20,202 nucleotides of DNA from the IMG/VR virus record IMGVR_UViG_3300038360_000092, positions 1 to 20,202 of that record. One strand, written 5' to 3'. Below the pieces are notes generated by a model. That model worked only from the letters and a program-made list of their open reading frames with translations, had not been told where the DNA came from and made no database searches. The translations under genes and the position numbers were made by a program. Positions 3,580-15,782 of the stretch are shown piece after piece (within the stretch, counting starts at the first letter, position 1; each line of letters starts with the position of its first letter). The stretch comes from a virus.

Positions 3580-3801
3580 GTGACCACGCAATTAACCGAA
3601 CGACAAGCCCGAGTAGTCGAGACCATTCGGAATTACACCGACACCCACGGCTACGGGCCTGCGGTGCGGGACTTGGCAGATGAGTTGGGTATCTCCTCGG
3701 CTGGCGCACAGAGGCACCTGGACGCACTGAGACGCAAGGGCGCGATCACCCGGACGCCGGGTGTGGCTCGATCGTTGCGGGCGTGCGCCCCCACGACGTA
3801 G
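3580..3801 (+). CDS. Stand-alone LexA-type winged-helix DNA-binding protein
   Basis: This encodes 73 residues from GTG at 3580, with AGGAG at 3570-3574 five bases upstream. It matches the N-terminal DNA-binding domain of LexA almost end to end: LTERQARVVETI, then HGYGPAVRDLADELG (helix 2), ISSAGAQRHLDAL (recognition helix) and RRKGAITRTPGVARSL (wing). The LexA autoprotease domain, including its Ser-Lys pair and Ala-Gly cleavage site, is absent, and the stop codon comes right after the wing. It therefore cannot respond to RecA by self-cleavage. It lies within the head genes and immediately before the structured capsid leader, so it may regulate late genes locally or act at host LexA sites. Its target is unknown. 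Confidence 0.85.
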   Translation: MTTQLTERQARVVETIRNYTDTHGYGPAVRDLADELGISSAGAQRHLDALRRKGAITRTPGVARSLRACAPTT

Positions 3802-3943: not shown

Positions 3944-4019
3944 AAAGCCGGCCGGCAAACGTCCCTACCGGACTCAGAACTTTATTTTGAGCCGTCGGGG
4001 TCTTGCCGGCCGGCTTTTT
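3944..4019 (+). terminator. Long hairpin with T-run, terminator or attenuator
   Basis: A 15-base perfect inverted repeat, AAAGCCGGCCGGCAA at 3944-3958 and its complement at 4003-4017, runs into TTTTT at 4015-4019. Further pairing closes the inside: CCC 3963-3965 with GGG 3998-4000, CGG 3969-3971 with CCG 3992-3994, and CTCAGAA 3973-3979 with TTTTGAG 3985-3991 (one G-U) around a CTTTA loop. It looks like an intrinsic terminator with an elaborate arm. It ends only 36 bases before the capsid ATG, so transcripts from upstream must read through it. Confidence 0.7.
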
Positions 4020-4020
4020 G

Positions 4021-4052
4021 CTTGCGCTTTCCCTGATGGCGGAAAGCGTAAG
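4021..4052 (+). promoter_or_regulatory. Hairpin covering the capsid ribosome-binding region
   Basis: CTTGCGCTTTCC at 4021-4032 pairs with GGAAAGCGTAAG at 4041-4052 over 12 bases (one G-U) around an eight-base loop, CTGATGGC. The 3' arm contains the only purine-rich ribosome-site candidate (GGA at 4041-4043) and ends three bases before the ATG at 4056. The folded form should hide the ribosome site; unfolding or a bound factor would expose it. The functional meaning is inference. Confidence 0.6.
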
Positions 4053-4055
4053 ATC

Positions 4056-5432
4056 ATGACAATCACCGAGATGATCGCCAAGCGGAAAGAGCTTCTGGCC
4101 GTCGCCGCGGCCGTGGGAGAAGAGGGTCAATCCGAAGACGGCGTTACTGACGAGCGGCTGGCCGAGGGGCAAGCGGCCCTAGAGCAAGCCGAAACGTTCA
4201 AGGTTGATATCGAAGCGGCCGAAGCCAGGCGAAGCCAAGGCGAGGCGCTCTTGACCGGTGCGGCGGAGGCGTCCAAGTGGGACAAGCAGCCGCAAAAGCA
4301 GATTTCGGCCCCCGCTCTCTTGACCAACCAGGACCCGCCGGAGAAGGTTGCAAGCGAGCCGGGCGAATTTGCGTCGTTGGGTGAGCGGCTGATGGCCGTC
4401 CGAAACGCCCAGAGTCAGCATCCCACCGAGTGGGACCAACGGCTATTGCCACAGGGTGCGATTTCCGGCGCCGGTGAGACGATCGGTTCCGATGGCGGCT
4501 TCCTTGTCGGTACTGACGAGGCGTCTGGACTGCTGGAGCAGATGTACGCCAACAACCAGATCCTCACGGGCGGCGATGGCTATTCTGGCCCGATGCGTGT
4601 TCCGATTTCTGCCAACTCGAATTCCGTGAAGTTCAAGGCACTGGCACAAACCAGCCGGGCCGACGGCAGCCGCCTTGGTGGAATCCAGGCATCGTGGATC
4701 GAAGAGGCGGGCACAAAGCCCGATACCAAGCCGACCTTCCGTCAGCTTGAGTTGAGCCTGAAGAAGCTGGTCGGTCTGTACTACGCCACCGACGAACTGT
4801 TGCAAGACTCTGCCGCTCTTGAGTCGATGGTCCTTGGTTGGTTTGCCCAGGAATTCGCTTTCAAGGTCCAGGACTCGCTGATCAACGGCACCGGGGCCGG
4901 GGTGCCGCTCGGCATTCTCAACGCCCCCTCGCTGGTTACCGTCGCGAAGGAAACCGGCCAAACGGCGGCCACGATCGTCAAGGAAAACATTGACAAGATG
5001 TGGTCCAGGATGTGGCCGCAGGGGATCGGCAACTCGGTCTGGCTGATCAACCAGCAGGTCTACCCGCAATTGTTCAGCCTGTCGCAAGCCGTAGGCACCG
5101 GGGGCGCTCCGGTTTACCTGCCGCCGGGTGGTCTGTCGGCCAGCCCATTCGGAACCCTGCTCGGACGACCTGTCGTTCCGATCGAGCAGTGCCAGGCGCT
5201 GGGCACCAAGGGCGATATATTCTTCTGCGATTGGTCGCAGATGATGTTCGCCGACAAGGGTGGAATCCAATCCGCGTCCTCGATCCACGTCAAGTTCGTG
5301 AACGACGAGACGGCCTTCCGGTTCGTTTATCGTTGCGATGCCCAGCCGATTTGGGCGTCTGCCTTGACTCCGTTCAAGGGCGGATCGAGTGCGACCATCG
5401 GCCCGTTCATTTCCTTGGCCACCCGCAGCTAA
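4056..5432 (+). CDS. Major capsid protein, HK97 gp5-like
   Basis: This is the main shell protein; it assembles as hexamers and pentamers around the scaffold and is processed by the upstream S49 protease. The start is the ATG at 4056 (458 residues). An in-frame TTG at 3987 would translate the leader hairpins and is unlikely. Residues 1-about 80 are charged and helical, like the delta scaffold domain that is removed in maturation. From about residue 135 the sequence shows HK97-fold hallmarks: GSDGGFLVGTDEASGLLEQM, a SWIEEAGTKPDTKPTFRQLEL beta segment, YYATDELLQDS, and INGTGAGVPLGIL, followed by a C-terminal DWSQMMFADKGGI region with HVKFVNDETAFRF. The exact cleavage site cannot be assigned from sequence alone. 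Confidence 0.95.
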   Translation: MTITEMIAKRKELLAVAAAVGEEGQSEDGVTDERLAEGQAALEQAETFKVDIEAAEARRSQGEALLTGAAEASKWDKQPQKQISAPALLTNQDPPEKVASEPGEFASLGERLMAVRNAQSQHPTEWDQRLLPQGAISGAGETIGSDGGFLVGTDEASGLLEQMYANNQILTGGDGYSGPMRVPISANSNSVKFKALAQTSRADGSRLGGIQASWIEEAGTKPDTKPTFRQLELSLKKLVGLYYATDELLQDSAALESMVLGWFAQEFAFKVQDSLINGTGAGVPLGILNAPSLVTVAKETGQTAATIVKENIDKMWSRMWPQGIGNSVWLINQQVYPQLFSLSQAVGTGGAPVYLPPGGLSASPFGTLLGRPVVPIEQCQALGTKGDIFFCDWSQMMFADKGGIQSASSIHVKFVNDETAFRFVYRCDAQPIWASALTPFKGGSSATIGPFISLATRS

Positions 5433-5994: not shown

Positions 5995-6789
5995 ATGCTG
6001 TTTGTAGTAACCGGTTCGCCACGATCTGGCACCCGCTACGCATCGCGTTTGCTGGCCGCGACGGGTCTTCCGTGCGATCACGAGAAGACCCTGCGGCCGC
6101 GTACGCTGATTGTGGATGTTGCAATGTGGCCGAAGCTGGATATTGGCGAGTCAAGCTGGATGGCATGGTGCCTATTGCCTTTAATGGTCGGGCACCGTGT
6201 CCCGGTGTTGCACACGATCCGTAACCCGTGGAGCGTGATCGACTCGCTGACAAACCGCAACCATATTCTGAACCCGTTAATCGACAGCGATTCGAGTTTA
6301 CAGAGCGTACGAGAGGTAATCAACGCTTATCTGCCCGACCTATTCGGCAGGGAGCAGCGGGTGGATAGGGCAGCCGCGTTGGTGCTTGGCTGGAATCGCT
6401 TGATTGAAGAAAACCAGCCCGAGCGGCTTGTGTACTACGTCGACAGACTTGACACGCCGTCCGTCCGAAAACTGCTGGCCCACGTGGGCGCACACAACGT
6501 CTCCGACGAGAAGATCACGGCGGCTCTCGACGAGGTGAGCAAGTCGACCAATTCGGGATACACGGTAGACAAAGTGCCCGGTATCAGTGATCCCGACGTG
6601 GCCGCATGGGTCGGGCAGTACGCAAAAGATAACGACGTTGGCAAGATAACGACCTGCAAGATTCGTGACGTTGCGGCACGAGAGACCCCCGAACAGTTGG
6701 TCGAACGGATGGACCCGGAGTTAGCCGAACAAGTCAACGAATACGCCCGCATGCACGGCTACCCGTGCTACGAACTTGTGACCGCATAG
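5995..6789 (+). CDS. Sulfotransferase-family protein
   Basis: Sulfotransferases move a sulfuryl group from PAPS to a hydroxyl or amine of a glycan, protein or small molecule. Both nucleotide-binding signatures are present: the 5'-phosphosulfate loop TGSPRSGTRYASRLL (residues 6-20, with R10-S11-G12-T13), and the 3'-phosphate motif HTIRNPWSVIDSL (residues 73-85, with R76 and S84 in the expected spacing). Its 264 residues suit a single domain; the acceptor part is not recognisable. There is no signal peptide, so it would act in the cytoplasm. The start is ATG at 5995, nine bases after the previous stop. A metabolic enzyme directly among capsid-decoration genes is unusual. The acceptor could be a virion protein, a sugar or a host molecule; unknown. 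Confidence 0.85.
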   Translation: MLFVVTGSPRSGTRYASRLLAATGLPCDHEKTLRPRTLIVDVAMWPKLDIGESSWMAWCLLPLMVGHRVPVLHTIRNPWSVIDSLTNRNHILNPLIDSDSSLQSVREVINAYLPDLFGREQRVDRAAALVLGWNRLIEENQPERLVYYVDRLDTPSVRKLLAHVGAHNVSDEKITAALDEVSKSTNSGYTVDKVPGISDPDVAAWVGQYAKDNDVGKITTCKIRDVAARETPEQLVERMDPELAEQVNEYARMHGYPCYELVTA

Positions 6790-7562: not shown

Positions 7563-8510
7563 ATGGCCGGAACTAAAACTTCTCAATTCGTGCGCCACAC
7601 CCCTGGCGGCGCGTTCAACGTCGAGGATCAAAGCTACTCGACCGGAGATCGCTGGTACGTCCACAGCGGGACGGGCACCGACGGCCTCGGGTACGGCACG
7701 CACCCCGACAGCCCATGTGCAACGATCGACTACGCGATCGGCCTAGCAACGGCGAGCCAGGGGGACGTTATCTATGTCATGCCGGGCCACGCGGAGAGCA
7801 TCACGGCCGCGGGTATCGACGTGGACAAGATCGGCCTGTCAATCGTTGGGCTTGGGAACGAGAACAACCGACCGACGATTACCTTCTCCGCTACTGATTC
7901 TGATGTGGATATTGACGCGGACGATGTGTATATCTCGGGGCTCCGGTTCGTTTCGGGGATCGCCGACTTGGCCTTGATGATCGACGCGAACGCCGAGAAT
8001 CTGGTGATGGAAAATTGCGAGTTCGTGGGGCCAACGTCCTACGAGGCGGACAACTTCATCAACATCGCCACGACGAAGGACTACTTCACCTTCCGCGGGT
8101 GCGTGTTCCGTCAAGGAGCCGACCCGGATGGGACCGATGGCGGTGACGCCACGGGCTGCTTTTATATCGTCGACTCCGAAAACATCACGGTTGAGGACTG
8201 TATGTTCCTCGGCGAGTTCGAGACGAGCATCTTCCACAACAAGACCTCAGCCGTAAAGAACTTGTGGATTCGCAACTGCTATGGAGAGCAAGCGTTGGGT
8301 GGTGCGGACGTGGCGACGATTGTGGCGGGTGCAACTGGCGGGATGGTTCGCTGTGCGTGGAATGTACCGGACGCCGGAGACAATACGACCATCGGGAGCT
8401 TCATCACGATGGCGTTGGATTCTCCATTCGGCTACCACGATTGCACGTTCATGAACGATAACGCCGCCGGCGAATGGGCAGCTTCGGCCGTCAACGCCGC
8501 GACCGCATAG
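7563..8510 (+). CDS. Right-handed beta-helix protein, copy A
   Basis: The product has 315 residues. After an N-terminal stretch with NVEDQSYSTGDRWYVHSG, residues about 55-270 show the short recurring strands of a pectate-lyase-like parallel beta-helix: GDVIYVMPGHAE, LSIVGLG, TITF, VDIDADDVYISGL, LVMENCEFVG, FTFRGCVFR, ITVEDCMFLG, LWIRNCYGEQ. Such helices are common in phage fibres, tailspikes and glycan-degrading enzymes. No catalytic residue set can be assigned. AAAGGA lies upstream (7547-7552). A clearly related gene follows 11 bases later. Its position between capsid and connector genes suggests a head fibre or decoration rather than a tail spike. A carbohydrate-active role remains possible. 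Confidence 0.75.
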   Translation: MAGTKTSQFVRHTPGGAFNVEDQSYSTGDRWYVHSGTGTDGLGYGTHPDSPCATIDYAIGLATASQGDVIYVMPGHAESITAAGIDVDKIGLSIVGLGNENNRPTITFSATDSDVDIDADDVYISGLRFVSGIADLALMIDANAENLVMENCEFVGPTSYEADNFINIATTKDYFTFRGCVFRQGADPDGTDGGDATGCFYIVDSENITVEDCMFLGEFETSIFHNKTSAVKNLWIRNCYGEQALGGADVATIVAGATGGMVRCAWNVPDAGDNTTIGSFITMALDSPFGYHDCTFMNDNAAGEWAASAVNAATA

Positions 8511-8521
8511 GAGGATTCACA

Positions 8522-9484
8522 ATGCCTGGAACAAAAACAGCACTATTCAGTCGCATGGCCCAAGGCGGTCTATACAACGTCGAGGACTTGCGGATGACTA
8601 CCGGGGATCGGTGGTGGGTCCACAGCGGAACCGGAAGCGACACCGCGAACAGCGGACTGTCTCCCGATGACGCATTGGCTACTATCGACGCGGCCATCAA
8701 CAAATGCACGGCGAGCGTTGGCGATATCGTCTACGTAATGCCGGGCCACGCCGAAACGATCGGTGCGGCCGGGATCGACGCGGACGTGATCGGCTTGTCC
8801 ATTATCGGGCTTGGCATCGAGAACAACCGGCCGACGATTACGTTTAATGCCACCACATCGGACATCGACATTGACGCCACGGATATATATATCTCTGGGC
8901 TGCGGTGCTTGTCCACCGTCAATAACCTGGCGAAGTTCGTGGACGTGAACGCCGAGCGGTTCACGATGGAAGACTGCGAGTTCGTTACGACGAGCACGAA
9001 AGAGGCGTATTGTTTTATCGACATCGCCACCACGAAAGACTACTTCACGTTCCGGCGATGTACATTCCGACAGCCTACCGACCCGACCCACGCGGGCGGG
9101 GACGGTGCGGCGGGCAGCGGGTGTTTCTACATCGTGGACTCGGAGAACATCTTGATCGAGGATTGTGTTTTCCTCGGCGAATTCGAGACCAGTATCATCC
9201 ACAACAAGACCTCGGCAGTAAAGAACCTCTGGATTCGCAACTGCTACGGCGAGCAAGCGTTGGCCGGTGCGGATGTTGCAACGATCGTTGCAACGGCTAC
9301 CGGGGGAATGGTTCGCTGTGCTTGGAACGTGCCGGACGCCGGGGACATCACGACCATCGGCGACTTCATTACGATGGCCGCCAACAGTCCGTTCGGCTAT
9401 CACGACTGCTCGTTTATGAATGACAACGCCACTGCCGGTGCGGGTGAATGGCAAGCCCTGCCGGTCAATACGGCTTCCACGTAA
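8522..9484 (+). CDS. Right-handed beta-helix protein, copy B
   Basis: The start is ATG at 8522, preceded by AGGAGG at 8510-8515; an in-frame start at 8474 overlaps copy A and is unlikely. Its 320 residues align with copy A along the whole length. Shared stretches include NVED, TGDRWxVHSGTG, VMPGHAE, ENNRPTITF, IATTKDYFTFR, HNKTSAVKNLWIRNCYGEQA and GGMVRCAWNVPDAGD. The N-terminal third has diverged more than the C-terminal half. This pair is a tandem duplication. The two proteins could form a mixed trimer or offer alternative receptor or substrate specificity; neither is shown. Confidence 0.75.
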   Translation: MPGTKTALFSRMAQGGLYNVEDLRMTTGDRWWVHSGTGSDTANSGLSPDDALATIDAAINKCTASVGDIVYVMPGHAETIGAAGIDADVIGLSIIGLGIENNRPTITFNATTSDIDIDATDIYISGLRCLSTVNNLAKFVDVNAERFTMEDCEFVTTSTKEAYCFIDIATTKDYFTFRRCTFRQPTDPTHAGGDGAAGSGCFYIVDSENILIEDCVFLGEFETSIIHNKTSAVKNLWIRNCYGEQALAGADVATIVATATGGMVRCAWNVPDAGDITTIGDFITMAANSPFGYHDCSFMNDNATAGAGEWQALPVNTAST

Positions 9485-9770: not shown

Positions 9771-10316
9771 ATGGGGTCCATCACCATACGAGGCGCAAGC
9801 GATGCAGAGGTTGCCAATGTGGATAACCATGCACTGCGAGCAAGACAGTACGGCGAGTGGGAAGACGCTCTCGCCAACGGCCAGGCGTTTTCATGGATGA
9901 ACGCCACCTATGACTACACGGCACTTGATACCATTCTCGGCGTGGAAAACAACTCGCCGACCAAAGACCTGAAGATCAAGTCAATCTTCGTGACAGGCTC
10001 GACGGCTTCGCAGTTTGTCGTGTTTACCGCGTCTGGTATTACGATGGCTGGCACGGCGGTCACTGGCGTAAGCCTCAACCGGAACGTCGCGACCGTAGCG
10101 CCGGCTACAGCTAAGGGCGACGAAACCGGGAACGGCGAGCAAGCTGGCGGATACGTCACCGGCTTGATTGCGGGGCAGTTTGCCAATAATGGGCAGGTCG
10201 AAATTCCGGTTGATGGGGCGATAATCCTGCCCCAGGACCACATGATAGGCGTTGATCTGACCGCCGACGGAACAACTTGCAATGTTGTGATCTTTGGTTA
10301 TTTCGTTGACCGCTAA
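9771..10316 (+). CDS. Capsid-region structural protein, paralogue A
   Basis: This encodes 181 residues, with a purine-rich ribosome site (GAAAGGGA, 9756-9763). The gene at 10334 is a paralogue: both carry an AFSWM motif, then TYD, DTILGVENNS, a beta-rich middle with (M)xGTAVxG, a TAKxDETGN segment, and a C-terminal DGAIxLPxDxxxGVDLT followed by VxIFGxF. The protein is beta-rich, lacks membrane segments and has no enzyme signature. It is most likely a virion surface or decoration component. The family is not recognised by name. It is not tail-like by position, since the connector genes follow it. Confidence 0.65.
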   Translation: MGSITIRGASDAEVANVDNHALRARQYGEWEDALANGQAFSWMNATYDYTALDTILGVENNSPTKDLKIKSIFVTGSTASQFVVFTASGITMAGTAVTGVSLNRNVATVAPATAKGDETGNGEQAGGYVTGLIAGQFANNGQVEIPVDGAIILPQDHMIGVDLTADGTTCNVVIFGYFVDR

Positions 10317-10333
10317 TAAAAGGAGCCACCCCA

Positions 10334-10888
10334 ATGGCTGACTATGCAGAGCCACACGCTATCGTGGGGCAAAATGGTTCCGGCGTCTACGTCGAAGACA
10401 GCGGAATGCGAACCAACACCCGGTCAGACTTTGACCAGGCCGTGATTGACGGCCGGGCGTTCTCGTGGATGTCCCAAACCTACGACCCAGACGCTCACGA
10501 TACGATCCTGGGCGTGGAGAATAACAGCACGACGCACGTGTTGAAAATCCACAAGGTGTTCGTCTGGTCGGATACTGCCAGTGCGATCCAGGTGTTTACC
10601 ATATCCGGCAAGACGATGACTGGGACGGCGGTGCCTGGAACGAACCTCAACCGTGCTTCTGGCCGGATTGCCGAGGCTACTGCCAAGGCCGACGAGACGG
10701 GGAACGCGGAACAGGCGGCTGGCTACACGCAGCACTTGCTGCATAAGCAAATCGCCGCAAACGCGCTCAATATCCTCGACATCGATGGCGCCATTGTGTT
10801 GCCGAATGATTTTCTCGTCGGGGTCGACCTCACCACCGCCGCGACTGCAGCCAACGTTACCATCTTTGGTTGGTTCGAGGAAATGTAA
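10334..10888 (+). CDS. Capsid-region structural protein, paralogue B
   Basis: This encodes 184 residues, with AGGAG at 10320-10324 just before the ATG. It is a paralogue of the gene at 9771 along nearly its whole length (AFSWM, DTILGVENNS, GTAVPGTNLNR, TAKADETGN, DGAIVLPNDF, VTIFGWFEE). The pair has diverged more than the beta-helix or tail-tube pairs, so this duplication looks older. Its N-terminus (residues 1-30) differs and includes GVYVEDSG, which recalls the NVED segment of the beta-helix genes. That could be a shared anchoring segment, though it is short. Confidence 0.65.
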   Translation: MADYAEPHAIVGQNGSGVYVEDSGMRTNTRSDFDQAVIDGRAFSWMSQTYDPDAHDTILGVENNSTTHVLKIHKVFVWSDTASAIQVFTISGKTMTGTAVPGTNLNRASGRIAEATAKADETGNAEQAAGYTQHLLHKQIAANALNILDIDGAIVLPNDFLVGVDLTTAATAANVTIFGWFEEM

Positions 10889-10903: not shown

Positions 10904-11473
10904 ATGATCCATAGCATTCGAGCAACACGCACCGAGCCGAGCGAGGAACCGGTCAGCATCCCCGAATTGCGGGACGCTGCCCGGATCACCGCTAAGACGC
11001 ACGACGCCCAACTGGGTGCTTTCCTCATCGCCGCCCGAAAGGTGATCGAGGAAAGTTACCTCTGGCGAGCGCTAATTACCCAGACGTGCGTGGACCGGTT
11101 CGATAGTTTTGCAGATGAAATGGAGCTTCGCTGGTCGCCAGTACAGAGCCTCACGTCGGTGGCGTATCTGGACACCGACGAGGACAGCCAAACCCTGGCG
11201 GCTACCTATTACGAGCTGGGCCAGAATAACGGTCTAGGGATTGTGCGTCTCAAGTACGACCAATCGTGGCCGACGGTATTGTCGCATCCAGATTCGGTAA
11301 CGGTTACGTCGGTGTGTGGCTACGGTGACGACGCGGAAGACGTGCCGCAACCGATCCGCCAGGCAATTATTCTGCACGCCCTGTGGCAGCACACGCAACG
11401 CGAGGGCATGGAATACCCTGGCGCCGCAATCTCCAGTTTATTGGGACCGTACATTTCGCATCGGTGCATTTAG
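10904..11473 (+). CDS. Head-tail connector protein, HK97 gp6 / phiE125 gp8-like
   Basis: Proteins of this family form the ring attached beneath the portal. The 189-residue sequence follows the usual layout: EPVSIPELRDAARI followed by LGAFLIAARKVIEESYLWRALITQTC (helical first part), then SPVQSLTSVAYLDTDED, a YELGQNNGLG segment, a SWPTVLSHPDSVTVTSVCGYG strand, and VPQPIRQAIILHALW with a final short LLGPY motif. GGGAG at 10899-10903 abuts the ATG at 10904, a tight spacing. It begins the neck block after the long decoration block. Confidence 0.85.
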   Translation: MIHSIRATRTEPSEEPVSIPELRDAARITAKTHDAQLGAFLIAARKVIEESYLWRALITQTCVDRFDSFADEMELRWSPVQSLTSVAYLDTDEDSQTLAATYYELGQNNGLGIVRLKYDQSWPTVLSHPDSVTVTSVCGYGDDAEDVPQPIRQAIILHALWQHTQREGMEYPGAAISSLLGPYISHRCI

Positions 11474-11484
11474 CGGGAATTGAC

Positions 11485-11730
11485 ATGAACACCGAATATA
11501 GAATCGTTGAGCGAGCGGGTGTATTTCGGGCACAATACCGAGACATCTGGGCGTGGTGGCCATTGAGGCTAACGCAATGGTGTTACGCTCTGAAGCACGG
11601 CTGCCATAGAGAGGGACTCGGTTCGCCAGAGGAATGGGATTCATACGAAAAGGCGGAGGAGGCAATTACGGATATGCTGGCCAAAGAGAAAAGAGAAGCC
11701 ACGGCATGGCAGCCGGTAGCGGGAACCTAA
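11485..11730 (+). CDS. Small hypothetical protein
   Basis: The start is ATG at 11485, with GCGGGA upstream (11473-11478); the in-frame start at 11383 overlaps the connector gene. The product has 81 residues, is Trp-rich (RDIWAWWPLRLTQW) and has a helical C-terminus. Many phages carry short proteins with a YxVxxxxxxFxAQYR...WW pattern, but no function can be given. It lies four bases before the cytidylyltransferase. Confidence 0.5.
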   Translation: MNTEYRIVERAGVFRAQYRDIWAWWPLRLTQWCYALKHGCHREGLGSPEEWDSYEKAEEAITDMLAKEKREATAWQPVAGT

Positions 11731-11733
11731 ACC

Positions 11734-12417
11734 ATGAACGTAGCGGCAATCATCCCTGCCCGCGGAGGCTCAAAAGGCATCCCACGTAAAAACCTCCAGC
11801 AGGTCGGGGGATTGCCGCTCGTTCGTTGGTCAATCAATGCAGCCCGGCAAGCGAAACTGATCGACGATGTGTATGTGTCGACGGATGATTCGGATATAGC
11901 CGCCGTGGCTCAGCATGGGGCTACGGTGATCCATCGGCCTGCACGGCTGGCCACCGATCGGTCAACTACCCCGGAGGCGGTGAGTCACGCGGTGGAGTCG
12001 ATGGCAGTCAAGCCAGACATTCTGGTAGTGATGCAATGCACGACACCGTTTACCACGCCGGGCGATATTAACCGAGCCGTAGCAATGCTAATCGAGGATG
12101 AATCGGCCGACGTAGTAGCCACGGTATGCGAGGACCACGGGTTCCAGTTGCGGCCGTACGCGGGTGGCGTTGAATGGGTTACTACGGAGCGAAGCGGCCG
12201 AGAGATTCGCAGACAAGACATTGAGCCAACGTACAAACTGAACGGTGGTTTATTCGTGTTTCGGACAGATGCGTTTATGCGGCAGCCAGATTGCATGTTC
12301 TTCGGCACGGTGCGCACGTGCGTCATGCCGGCCGACCGGTCTATTGATATCGACACGCCGTATGACCTGCACGTAGCGGAGGCGACGGCCCAATACTTAG
12401 CGGGAGAAAGCAAGTGA
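11734..12417 (+). CDS. CMP-nonulosonate (N-acylneuraminate-type) cytidylyltransferase
   Basis: Enzymes of this family join CTP and a nonulosonic acid (sialic, legionaminic or pseudaminic acid) to give the CMP-sugar that glycosyltransferases use. Hallmarks are IPARGGSKGIPRKN (residues 7-20, CTP-binding loop), an MQCTTPF segment (100-106; most members have LQPTSP), YKLNGGLFVF (167-176), and SIDIDTPYDL (203-212), whose Asp residues bind metal. Its 227 residues match the family length and all core parts are present, so it looks intact. The sugar specificity (sialic, Leg, Pse or Kdo) cannot be read. It overlaps the next gene by four bases, so the two are coupled. Confidence 0.88.
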   Translation: MNVAAIIPARGGSKGIPRKNLQQVGGLPLVRWSINAARQAKLIDDVYVSTDDSDIAAVAQHGATVIHRPARLATDRSTTPEAVSHAVESMAVKPDILVVMQCTTPFTTPGDINRAVAMLIEDESADVVATVCEDHGFQLRPYAGGVEWVTTERSGREIRRQDIEPTYKLNGGLFVFRTDAFMRQPDCMFFGTVRTCVMPADRSIDIDTPYDLHVAEATAQYLAGESK

Positions 12418-13160
12418 TCAACAAGAAGTTTCCAGAGGACGAATGGATCGTCGTAGGCTCGTCACCGGGTGCGTCTGAGTTTCCGCAGTTGCGGGCTCAG
12501 TTGCCGGACGCGGTCACGATAACCACTAACCGGGGCTACAAGCTGTTTACGGAAGACGACCCGCCGCAGGTGTATTTCCTCTGCGATCTGCTGGACCTTG
12601 TCCCCGGCAGGGTCGACGACGATGGCAGCGAAGCGTCGGAGCGGTTTCTGGACTGTCGAGCGGCTGGCAGAAGCTTGCACGATAACGGATGTCACGTAAT
12701 CGGCCACATTCGGAACGCTCAACTTCGCGACCAGTGGGGGCTCGATTGGTTCGACGAACTGATCATTGCCGAAGTGGGCTCGTGGCGCCCGTGGTCGTTT
12801 CAGCGTGGCAAGTACACGGCGGCCCGGTTGTCGGGCTTATTCGCGTTGCAGTATGCGATCAACAAGGGAGCCAAGCGTGTCCACCTGATCGGCTGCGAGG
12901 GGTACGCGAAGGGCGGCCATTATTTCGACAAGGGCGAGGATAGCCCTGTCGGCGACGACTTCACGACATCGCACATCGAGCCGTTTACGTGGGCAGTGAT
13001 CAAGGCGTGCCCTGATGTCCATTTCACGTTCTACGGCGATTTGAACTACAAGGTTGTCGGCACCGAGAACGTCACGCAGTGCAAGACGGTGGACGTGATG
13101 GATACCGTCGTTGAATATGTCGGCAAGGACAAGGACAGCGAAGCGGAGGGGCAGTCATGA
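12414..13160 (+). CDS. DUF115 / sialyltransferase-like Rossmann protein
   Basis: The product has 248 residues from a GTG start overlapping the cytidylyltransferase stop. It shows a WIVVGSSPGAS nucleotide loop (11-21), TTNRGYKL (37-44) and, after SGLFALQYAINKGA, VHLIGCEGY followed by GGHYF (156-171). The same layout (IVGNGPS, an N-containing strand, and an LxGxD/E-HYF motif) occurs in the DUF115 and MAF-type flagellin glycosylation proteins and in GT42-like sialyltransferases. I infer a glycosyltransferase using the CMP-sugar made by its neighbour. A different Rossmann function cannot be excluded from sequence alone. Confidence 0.6.
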   Translation: MINKKFPEDEWIVVGSSPGASEFPQLRAQLPDAVTITTNRGYKLFTEDDPPQVYFLCDLLDLVPGRVDDDGSEASERFLDCRAAGRSLHDNGCHVIGHIRNAQLRDQWGLDWFDELIIAEVGSWRPWSFQRGKYTAARLSGLFALQYAINKGAKRVHLIGCEGYAKGGHYFDKGEDSPVGDDFTTSHIEPFTWAVIKACPDVHFTFYGDLNYKVVGTENVTQCKTVDVMDTVVEYVGKDKDSEAEGQS

Positions 13161-13384
13161 AATCATGCGTAATAGCTAACAGCGTGTGGCGATGGCCCGA
13201 GTGGATAGCATTATGTGAGCGACTGGAGATTCCACTGGACTTCGCCAATCGCGACATATCCATACGCTTGTCAATGGACTGCGAGGTAGTCGTGAACCAT
13301 ACCTATATCGGAAGGGACGCCACTGCGGAGGACCACCCCCTTGACCCTCAGTTTGTAGATGGGATAGATGTCCGTCACCGATAA
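13157..13384 (+). CDS. Small hypothetical protein
   Basis: This encodes 75 residues. The ATG overlaps the stop of the previous gene by four bases, and its own end overlaps the next gene by 17 bases, so it is part of a chain of coupled genes. No recognised domain. Two Cys (4 and 20) and several Trp are near the N-terminus. The sequence LDFANRDISIRLSMDCEVVVNHTY recalls a beta-alpha unit. It could accompany the sugar genes, but this rests on position alone. Confidence 0.45.
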   Translation: MKSCVIANSVWRWPEWIALCERLEIPLDFANRDISIRLSMDCEVVVNHTYIGRDATAEDHPLDPQFVDGIDVRHR

Positions 13385-13706
13385 ACCCAGCCGCCGAAAC
13401 AAATACGTCCGTGTTGAGAAACCAACGCAGACCACCACTGCCGGAAAGACATCCGAGACGTGGTCGTTTTGGTGCCATGCGTGGGTGTCGATCGAACCGG
13501 TGTCGGGCCGCGAGGGCATGGAGGTACACGAGCAGCAGTCGAGCATCACGCACTTATGCCGGGGGTTGTACGCGGAATTCGATACGGTGACGGCCGACTT
13601 CCGGATCGTCTGGGATAGCCGGACGTTCCATCTGCTCGAAGCCCCGCGGAATCTGGAAGAGGCGAACGTGATTTATGAGATGGCGATAGAAGAGGAGACG
13701 CGGTAA
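13368..13706 (+). CDS. Head closure / head-tail joining protein
   Basis: At 112 residues, this matches the small phage head-tail joining family (SPP1 gp16-like), which closes the connector pore after packaging. Seen in sequence: KTSETWSFWCHAWVSIEPVSGREGMEVHEQQ, a RGLYAEFDTVTADFRIVWDSRTFHLLEAPRNLEEANVIYEMAIEEE tail of alternating strands, as is usual in the family (W-A-x-I-x-P and the W-D-x-R-T/F-x-L-L). The ATG lies inside the previous gene. The stop and the next ATG share one base (TAATG). Confidence 0.85.
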   Translation: MSVTDKPSRRNKYVRVEKPTQTTTAGKTSETWSFWCHAWVSIEPVSGREGMEVHEQQSSITHLCRGLYAEFDTVTADFRIVWDSRTFHLLEAPRNLEEANVIYEMAIEEETR

Positions 13707-14960: not shown

Positions 14961-15317
14961 ATGGCTGATGATAGTTTCAATGGCGCGTCAATTAAGCTGG
15001 CGACGGTAGACGTTGGTCCGCTGCGCTCCATATCCTTTTCGGAAGCAGGGGCAAAAGCCGACGTAACCGATTCCGACGATACGGCAAAAGCCTACGCGGT
15101 AGGCATAGCCGACGCCACGGTAACGTGCGAGGTAGTCGGCGGTGTTTCCGTCTCGGTCGGAGATACGGGCGACCTAGACGTAACGTGGGGCGATATCGGA
15201 GCGTCCACTAGCGGGTCAATTGCAAGTGCTCAAGTGGTGAGCATAGCGACCAACGGATCAATGGACGGAGAAATCACGAGCACCGTGGAATTCTGCACGG
15301 CTGCTCCAACAGCATAA
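14961..15317 (+). CDS. Major tail (tube) protein, copy A
   Basis: These 118 residues look like a minimal tail-tube protein: SISFSEAGAKADVTDSDDTAKAYAVGI, with a TVTCEVVGG strand, DTGDLDVTWGD loop, and ITSTVEFCTA C-terminal strand. The position between tail completion and chaperone genes is the standard one for this role. The ATG at 14961 is the first start in this frame after the previous stop. The leader is odd: instead of an ordinary ribosome site it has a GGCATCCACGGGGG element 17-30 bases upstream, and copy B has almost the same element. A second, closely similar copy follows the terminator. Confidence 0.72.
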   Translation: MADDSFNGASIKLATVDVGPLRSISFSEAGAKADVTDSDDTAKAYAVGIADATVTCEVVGGVSVSVGDTGDLDVTWGDIGASTSGSIASAQVVSIATNGSMDGEITSTVEFCTAAPTA

Positions 15318-15325
15318 CTGAGTCA

Positions 15326-15385
15326 AGCGGTCTAGGGTTAGCGCCCGAAAGCCCGGTTCCCGCCCGGGTTAGACCGCTCGTTTTT
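15326..15385 (+). terminator. Intrinsic-terminator-like structure between tail-tube genes
   Basis: AGCGGTCTA at 15326-15334 pairs perfectly with TAGACCGCT at 15370-15378, followed two bases later by TTTTT (15381-15385). Inside, CCCGG 15352-15356 and CCGGG 15364-15368 close a seven-base loop, and GGG 15335-15337 can pair with CCC 15344-15346, so a three-way junction is possible. It would cut transcription after the first tail-tube gene and lower expression of the genes after it. Confidence 0.7.
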
Positions 15386-15425
15386 GTGGGAATGGCGTCC
15401 ACGGGGGGCGGATGGTTTTGGCCCG

Positions 15426-15782
15426 ATGGCCGACGACAGTTTCAATGGTGCAAGCCTGACGTTTGCAACCGTGGCAGTTGGACCAATTCGGTCCATATCC
15501 TTTTCGGAAGTCGGCGCAAAAGCCGACGTAACCGACTCTGACGATTCGGCGAAAGCCTATGACGTTGGTATTCCCGACGCGACGGTAACGATCGAAGTCG
15601 TCGGGGGTGTTTCCGTCTCGGTCGGCGATACGGGCACCCTCACGATTGCATGGGGTGATATCGGCACGGCAACTAGCGGGACGATTGCCCAGGCTCAGGT
15701 TGTGAGCATCGCAACCAACGGCAGCATGGACAGCGAGATTACAAGCACCGTGGAATTCTGCACGGCTGCTCCAACAGCTTAA
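15426..15782 (+). CDS. Major tail (tube) protein, copy B
   Basis: Also 118 residues, and co-linear with copy A without gaps. Differences cluster near the N-terminus and the middle (DVGPLRSISFSEAGA against AVGPIRSISFSEVGA; CEVVGG against IEVVGG). The last 35 coding bases before the stop (15744-15778) are identical to copy A (15279-15313), which suggests recent duplication or gene conversion. The ATG at 15426 is chosen over an in-frame TTG at 15384 because the upstream DNA is shared with copy A but falls in a different frame there, so it is not coding. It follows the terminator-like structure. Mixed tubes or phase-variable alternatives are possible. Confidence 0.72.
   Translation: MADDSFNGASLTFATVAVGPIRSISFSEVGAKADVTDSDDSAKAYDVGIPDATVTIEVVGGVSVSVGDTGTLTIAWGDIGTATSGTIAQAQVVSIATNGSMDSEITSTVEFCTAAPTA

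Follow-up and report, generated by a model that had tools for sequence, protein, structure and literature searches.

Introduction

To our knowledge, phage particles are generally regarded as bare protein, and few virion glycosylation systems are known. The described systems closest to the phage genes reported here are the NeuA/PseF/LegF synthetases (PF02348; TIGR03584), the GT42 enzymes CstI and CstII (PF06002) and the Maf proteins (PF01973 together with PF20157). CstII-type enzymes work from the cytosol on lipooligosaccharide. Maf proteins O-glycosylate Ser and Thr residues of flagellin from CMP-nonulosonates by means of a PF01973 domain, which is CstII-like (PMC11339370). With regard to phages, glycosylation is described for mycobacteriophage virion proteins, namely capsid and tail tube proteins (Freeman et al. 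2023, as cited in PMC12619734). In the literature covered, from which subscription journals were largely absent, we found no report of a CMP-nonulosonate synthetase or an MptE-like transferase that glycosylates virion proteins, of a phage cassette that combines a CMP-nonulosonate synthetase with a DUF115/MptE-like protein, or of nonulosonate glycosylation of virions.

Here we analyze such a gene pair, designated P1 and P2, in a 20,202-base fragment of IMG/VR (IMGVR_UViG_3300038360_000092), referred to below as the window. An earlier note on this DNA had described a CMP-sugar synthetase gene that overlaps a DUF115/sialyltransferase-like gene by four bases inside the neck block, and had suggested that the two act together on a sugar supplied by the host. 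We compared both proteins with the systems mentioned above, collected their relatives from viral and cellular sequences, and considered which acceptor the pair may serve.

Results

Gene order in the window

The window follows the standard siphophage order of portal, S49 protease, HK97-type capsid protein, gp6-like connector and head closure genes, with gp10, gp17, tail-tube-like proteins and the tape measure 3' of the head closure gene. The positions of the pair, its flanks and the capsid gene are shown in Table 1. Both reading frames and their motifs are present as the earlier note described them, the GTG start of P2 lies within the stop of P1 (a four-base overlap, GTGA), and profile matches of the flanking genes agreed with its placement of the pair between the gp6-like connector and the head closure protein. 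What that description had missed was two small ORFs, one between the gp6-like gene and P1 and the other overlapping the stop of P2. The upstream ORF was not found in relatives, and family searches with it gave no match. The downstream ORF had no match in family searches either, and it is kept in the contig L075 (684-872; 44% identity over 48 aa, tblastn E 1.2e-9). Its homologue there lies upstream of P1, so that the two copies flank the P1-P2 pair on different sides, which suggests a rearrangement or a mobile unit. The downstream ORF is a possible member of the cassette.

Table 1. Positions of the P1-P2 pair, its flanking genes and the capsid gene in the window
Feature	Position	Strand	Remarks
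Major capsid protein, candidate acceptor	4059..5432	+	PF05065 E 1.2e-44; start codon at 4059 is an assumption (ORF as listed 3987-5432)
gp6-like head-tail connector	10904..11473	+	phrog_442 E 6e-20; flank of the pair
Small ORF in the gp6-P1 interval	11497..11730	+	77 codons; frame start possibly upstream
P1, predicted CMP-nonulosonate synthetase (sialic/pseudaminic/legionaminic acid-type)	11734..12417	+	ATG start, 227 aa
P2, probable CMP-nonulosonate-dependent glycosyltransferase of the MptE-like/DUF115-GT42 superfamily	12414..13160	+	GTG start, 248 aa
Small ORF overlapping the P2 stop	13157..13384	+	75 aa
Head closure/head completion protein	13368..13706	+	PF05521 (Phage_HCP) E 3.3e-7; phrog_25 E 1.9e-6

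The protease-capsid interval contains a 73-aa protein that consists of a LexA DNA-binding domain only (3580-3801, E 6e-20), and the capsid-connector interval contains two paralogous proteins resembling right-handed beta-helices (7563-9484; Beta_helix E 3e-4 and 2.5e-3). Genes of structural type are also duplicated in tandem at 9771-10888 (the 9771/10334 pair) and 14961-15782 (two tail-tube-like copies).

P1, the probable activating enzyme

P1 carries the motifs IPARGGSKGIPRKN and SIDIDTPYDL. It matched PF02348 at 89.6 bits (cut-off 22.6; E 3.3e-25) and aligned end to end with the NeuA structures 6ifd, 9ftb and 1eyr in PDB (E 1e-27 to 1e-28). In this alignment, R10, K14, K19, N20, Q101, D205 and D207 of P1 correspond to R12, K16, K21, N22, Q104, D209 and D211 of Neisseria meningitidis NeuA, the CTP- and metal-binding residues of that enzyme. 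Among the relatives of P1, D207 is invariant, and the position of D205 is occupied by Glu in L075. Against the PseF model TIGR03584, P1 scored 135.9 bits, under the equivalog cut-off of 205.7, and hence it was not assigned as a pseudaminic acid-specific PseF.

The 80 nearest cellular genes share 34-45% identity with P1. A NeuB-type nonulosonate synthase was found in 62 of these 80 loci, which fixes the substrate class of the synthetase family to which P1 belongs. On the basis of the PF02348 and NeuA matches, the CTP- and metal-binding residues and the frequency of NeuB in these loci, P1 is very probably active as a CMP-nonulosonate synthetase. Its first identification as a CMP-sugar synthetase was thereby confirmed at the level of profiles, structures and catalytic residues.

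Phylogenetic analysis showed that P1 of the window and its homologues in L075, L029 and L013 form a virus clade (support 99/98) outside the sampled cellular sequences. The seven P1 proteins of neck type fell into two groups in the large tree, whereas a reduced set united them (84/95); P1 may therefore have been recruited once or on two separate occasions. Compared with the described NeuA/PseF/LegF enzymes, P1 has the same fold, motif and catalytic residues, but it differs in its score below the PseF equivalog cut-off, its membership of a virus clade, its location in a capsid block, the absence of NeuB from the contig, and the fact that its homologues may be fused to a transferase.

P2, predicted fold and counterparts of CMP-site residues

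P2 carries the motifs VVGSSPGAS and LIGCEGYAKGGHYF. When searched alone, it had no match over the cut-off in Pfam, NCBIfam or PDB, including PF01973 and the CST-I model PF06002, and it reached only E 0.011 against phrog_4603 (alpha-2,3-sialyltransferase). Profiles of the P2 family, on the other hand, matched CstII (E 1.7e-7 for profile A2 with 15 members and 1.3e-10 for profile A6 with 21 members) as well as the Maf structure 5mu5 (E 0.003-0.005). A core-only profile built from the six closest relatives of P2 gave E about 1 against CstII; thus, the link between P2 and CstII runs via the wider phage family. Among individual members, PF01973 (MptE-like) was matched by 9 of the 21 in A6 (L065 at 55.5 bits, over the cut-off), phrog_4603 by 7 of 15 relatives (best E 6.8e-7) and PF06002 by 2 of 21 (best E 5e-4); L079, a core member, reached only E 0.004 against PF01973. 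It should be noted that a wide iterative profile risks drift, and that the main claims use the eight-member core and the A2 and A6 profiles, with the single exception of the adjacency count in 55 contigs described below, for which a broad P2-like profile was used.

Structure prediction gave a model of the window P2 with pLDDT 77, whose top PDB match in Foldseek was CstII (1ro8; E 3.7e-4, prob 1.00, TM 0.43). The model of the corresponding domain of L013 (pLDDT 91) matched both MptE (8sd5; E 2.8e-4, TM 0.47-0.48) and CstII (1ro7; TM 0.50), each with prob 1.00. These TM-scores are modest (0.43-0.50), and MptE, a kinase, matches as well as CstII. In BFVD, the top matches were phage MptE-like proteins. 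Matches to SDR proteins were also obtained with Foldseek and were put down to generic Rossmann similarity (TM about 0.3).

In the profile alignment, N39, S140, Y164 and Y170 of P2 correspond to Asn31, Ser132, Tyr156 and Tyr162 of CstII, which belong to its CMP site. All eight core members of the P2 family have N39 and Y164, and seven have S140 (Thr in L021) and seven Y170 (His in L075). In the 21-member alignment, N39 and G160 are the only invariant columns and the column of Y170 is near-invariant. No conserved counterpart was found in the core members for the catalytic His188 of CstII: a His occurs near this place at differing positions in P2, L029, L013, L021 and L044, and none is present in L075 and L068. 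Therefore, P2 was not filed as a GT42 enzyme.

These results show that P2 is kin to CMP-sugar transferases, and suggest that it probably has a fold of the Maf/MptE-like-GT42 family and is quite probably a CMP-nonulosonate transferase. The DUF115/sialyltransferase-like character proposed for P2 thus failed in searches with the single sequence and held for family profiles and fold searches. The earlier note had named profile searches and structure prediction as checks; the former matched P1 directly and P2 at the family level, and the latter, for the model of the window P2, placed CstII first.

With Maf proteins, P2 has in common a probable CstII-related fold of the PF01973 type, the probable CMP-nonulosonate donor and a synthetase encoded nearby (for example, in L129), but P2 has one domain only and lacks the N-terminal PF20157 (Maf_flag10_N) of Maf, and its context is capsid-neck rather than flagellar. 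With respect to CstI and CstII, the P2 family has its best PDB profile match in this group and keeps the Asn, Ser, Tyr and Tyr of the CMP site, but a conserved equivalent of His188 is lacking, P2 itself does not match PF06002 and no lipooligosaccharide locus surrounds the gene. phrog_4603 is matched better by relatives of P2 than by P2 itself, and the core family gave no tblastn match in GenBank phage records.

Distribution and coupling of P1 and P2

Searches of IMG/VR with P1 or P2 as single proteins found no relatives. A scan of IMG/VR for the synthetase motif gave 67 contigs, in whose neighbouring ORFs P2 relatives were sought, and a second scan gave L075 and L079. Homologues of P1 and P2 are joined in a single ORF (423-426 aa) in L029/L067, which represent one lineage, and in L013, and they are adjacent or overlapping in L021, L044, L068 and L075. 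The last of these is syntenic with the window (56% identity for P1 and 59% for P2, both frames intact). Across the relatives, the pair has kept its frames intact, and identity ranges from 31 to 59%; in L079, P2 adjoins the capsid gene without P1. In a broader count, a P2-like ORF was fused or adjacent to the synthetase in 18 of 55 non-redundant viral contigs, whereas random genes of the same loci gave a mean of 5.6 and a maximum of 14 in 5,000 draws. Thus, the predicted coupling of P1 and P2, proposed earlier from one pair of overlapping genes, is strongly supported by gene fusion in other phages and adjacency in more of them.

The core P2 profile had no match at E<1e-3 in the 80 nearest cellular synthetase loci (one weak match, 0.003, in L152), tblastn with the core family had none at E 0.01-0.1 in 50,697 GenBank phage records, and a search of genome contigs with P2 found nothing. 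In the collections searched, the core family was seen only in uncultured viral contigs. The sole P1 match in the GenBank phage set, Moritella FPLJ01000048, was rejected as a bacterial capsule locus mis-filed there.

Placement and occurrence of NeuB

In every core contig, the pair or P2 adjoins the gene for the major capsid protein or gp6, in at least three arrangements. It lies in the interval between capsid protein and gp6 in L076 and L078 (both fusions) and L079 (P2 only), between the protease-side genes and the capsid protein in L021 and L068, 3' of the capsid protein in L044, and between gp6 and head closure in the window and L075.

NeuB was found in none of the nine neck-type (capsid-block) records, whereas all 17 of the remaining viral contigs in which the synthetase has a P2-like neighbour encode it. 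All these contigs may be fragments, so that the absence of NeuB is weak and only suggestive evidence. With the same reservation, this distribution is consistent with the earlier proposal that the sugar comes from the host. It is suggestive of two architectures, one in large self-sufficient viruses and the other a minimal capsid-block unit that depends on host sugar.

Many viral contigs (L008, L014, L015, L034, L042, L043, L051, L065, L066, L041 and others) encode NeuB together with a CMP-nonulosonate synthetase and between one and three MptE-like proteins, and are thus predicted to hold most of a nonulosonate pathway. The synthetase of L066 (3796-5433) carries a fused C-terminal domain that by eye resembles a branched-chain/D-amino-acid aminotransferase. 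In addition, a protein of 264 aa encoded in the window close 3' of the capsid gene (5995-6789) has a GSPRSGT P-loop and matches Sulfotransfer_3 weakly (E 0.026), and in L011 and L050 the synthetase is followed by a sulfotransferase-like gene (phrog_3347); sugar sulfation may thus accompany nonulosonate genes in some phages.

Discussion

We propose that P1 would convert CTP and a free nonulosonic acid (of the pseudaminic, legionaminic or sialic acid type), which probably comes from the pool of the host, into CMP-nonulosonate, and that P2, a soluble Rossmann-type transferase, would hand the CMP-bound sugar on to an acceptor. The most likely acceptor would be a capsid, neck or tail protein of the virion made simultaneously, and the outcome a particle coated with negatively charged sugar. 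The activation step is well supported and the transfer step is likely. A virion protein is the leading acceptor because the pair appears to be cytosolic and membrane-free (neither P1 nor P2 has a long hydrophobic segment) and lies in the capsid-neck block of several phages. Maf modifies Ser and Thr of flagellin, and therefore protein acceptors would be natural for the P2 superfamily. If transfer takes place, we infer from the location of the genes that a virion acceptor is reasonably likely. For the unit as a whole, in which host nonulosonic acid would be activated and attached to a virion protein, we lean somewhat towards acceptance. A wider proposal, which we put forward tentatively and with some doubt, is that a capsid-block cassette crossing phage lineages, including its single-chain synthetase-transferase form, captures free nonulosonic acid of the host and O-glycosylates the phage's own capsid or neck proteins, giving nonulosonate-coated virions.

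The same enzymes might instead modify the host surface (lipopolysaccharide, capsule or a teichoic-type glycan) and thereby block superinfection or alter the surface of the lysogen or infected cell. Given the cytosolic action of CstII-type enzymes on lipooligosaccharide, which the PDB names of GT42 enzymes such as CstII also indicate, genes in this location could serve such an acceptor as well, and phage glycosyltransferases that alter host serotype are known (discussed in PMC12619734). However, every core contig has the pair embedded among late capsid-neck genes and not near lysogeny genes, both proteins are free of hydrophobic segments, and neither a flippase nor another gene for surface glycans was recognised in the window. 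We consider a host-surface acceptor unlikely on these grounds.

The fold data also bear on whether P2 transfers a sugar at all. The MptE-like pterin pyrophosphokinase 8sd5 matches the structure as well as CstII does or better, and the P2 family is without a conserved equivalent of His188; both points speak for the reading that P2 is an MptE-like phosphotransferase or a protein that binds or hydrolyses CMP-nonulosonate. The pair would then tune the pool of CMP-sugar, for instance through depletion of the CMP-nonulosonate of the host. This appears improbable: P2 keeps the CMP-binding Asn/Ser/Tyr/Tyr pattern of CstII, the fused synthetase supplies a CMP-sugar and not a pterin, and no pterin genes were seen nearby.

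CMP-nonulosonate synthetases are common in bacteria, and the pair could be a passenger (moron) of bacterial origin without a phage role. This reading is very hard to reconcile with the restriction of the P2 core family to viral contigs in the collections searched, the intact frames at 31-59% identity, the repeated fusion or adjacency and the fixed placement. Finally, the DNA-modifying transferases known to us use UDP-sugars, the pair lies in a capsid block, and no base-hypermodification gene was recognised in the window. Attachment of the sugar to phage DNA rather than protein is hence scarcely credible, even though virus transferases that hypermodify DNA exist (Pyle et al. 2024, as cited in PMC12619734).

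With transfer to a virion protein as the preferred reading, P1-P2 would represent phage glycosylation by a Maf/GT42-like transferase that is accompanied by its own activating enzyme, and the unit would provide a small enzyme, possibly in a single chain, with which proteins could be sialylated. The pair also offers a concrete test of the function of MptE-like proteins in phage genomes. If the proposal is true, phages might mask their particles or tune adsorption with a metabolite of the host.
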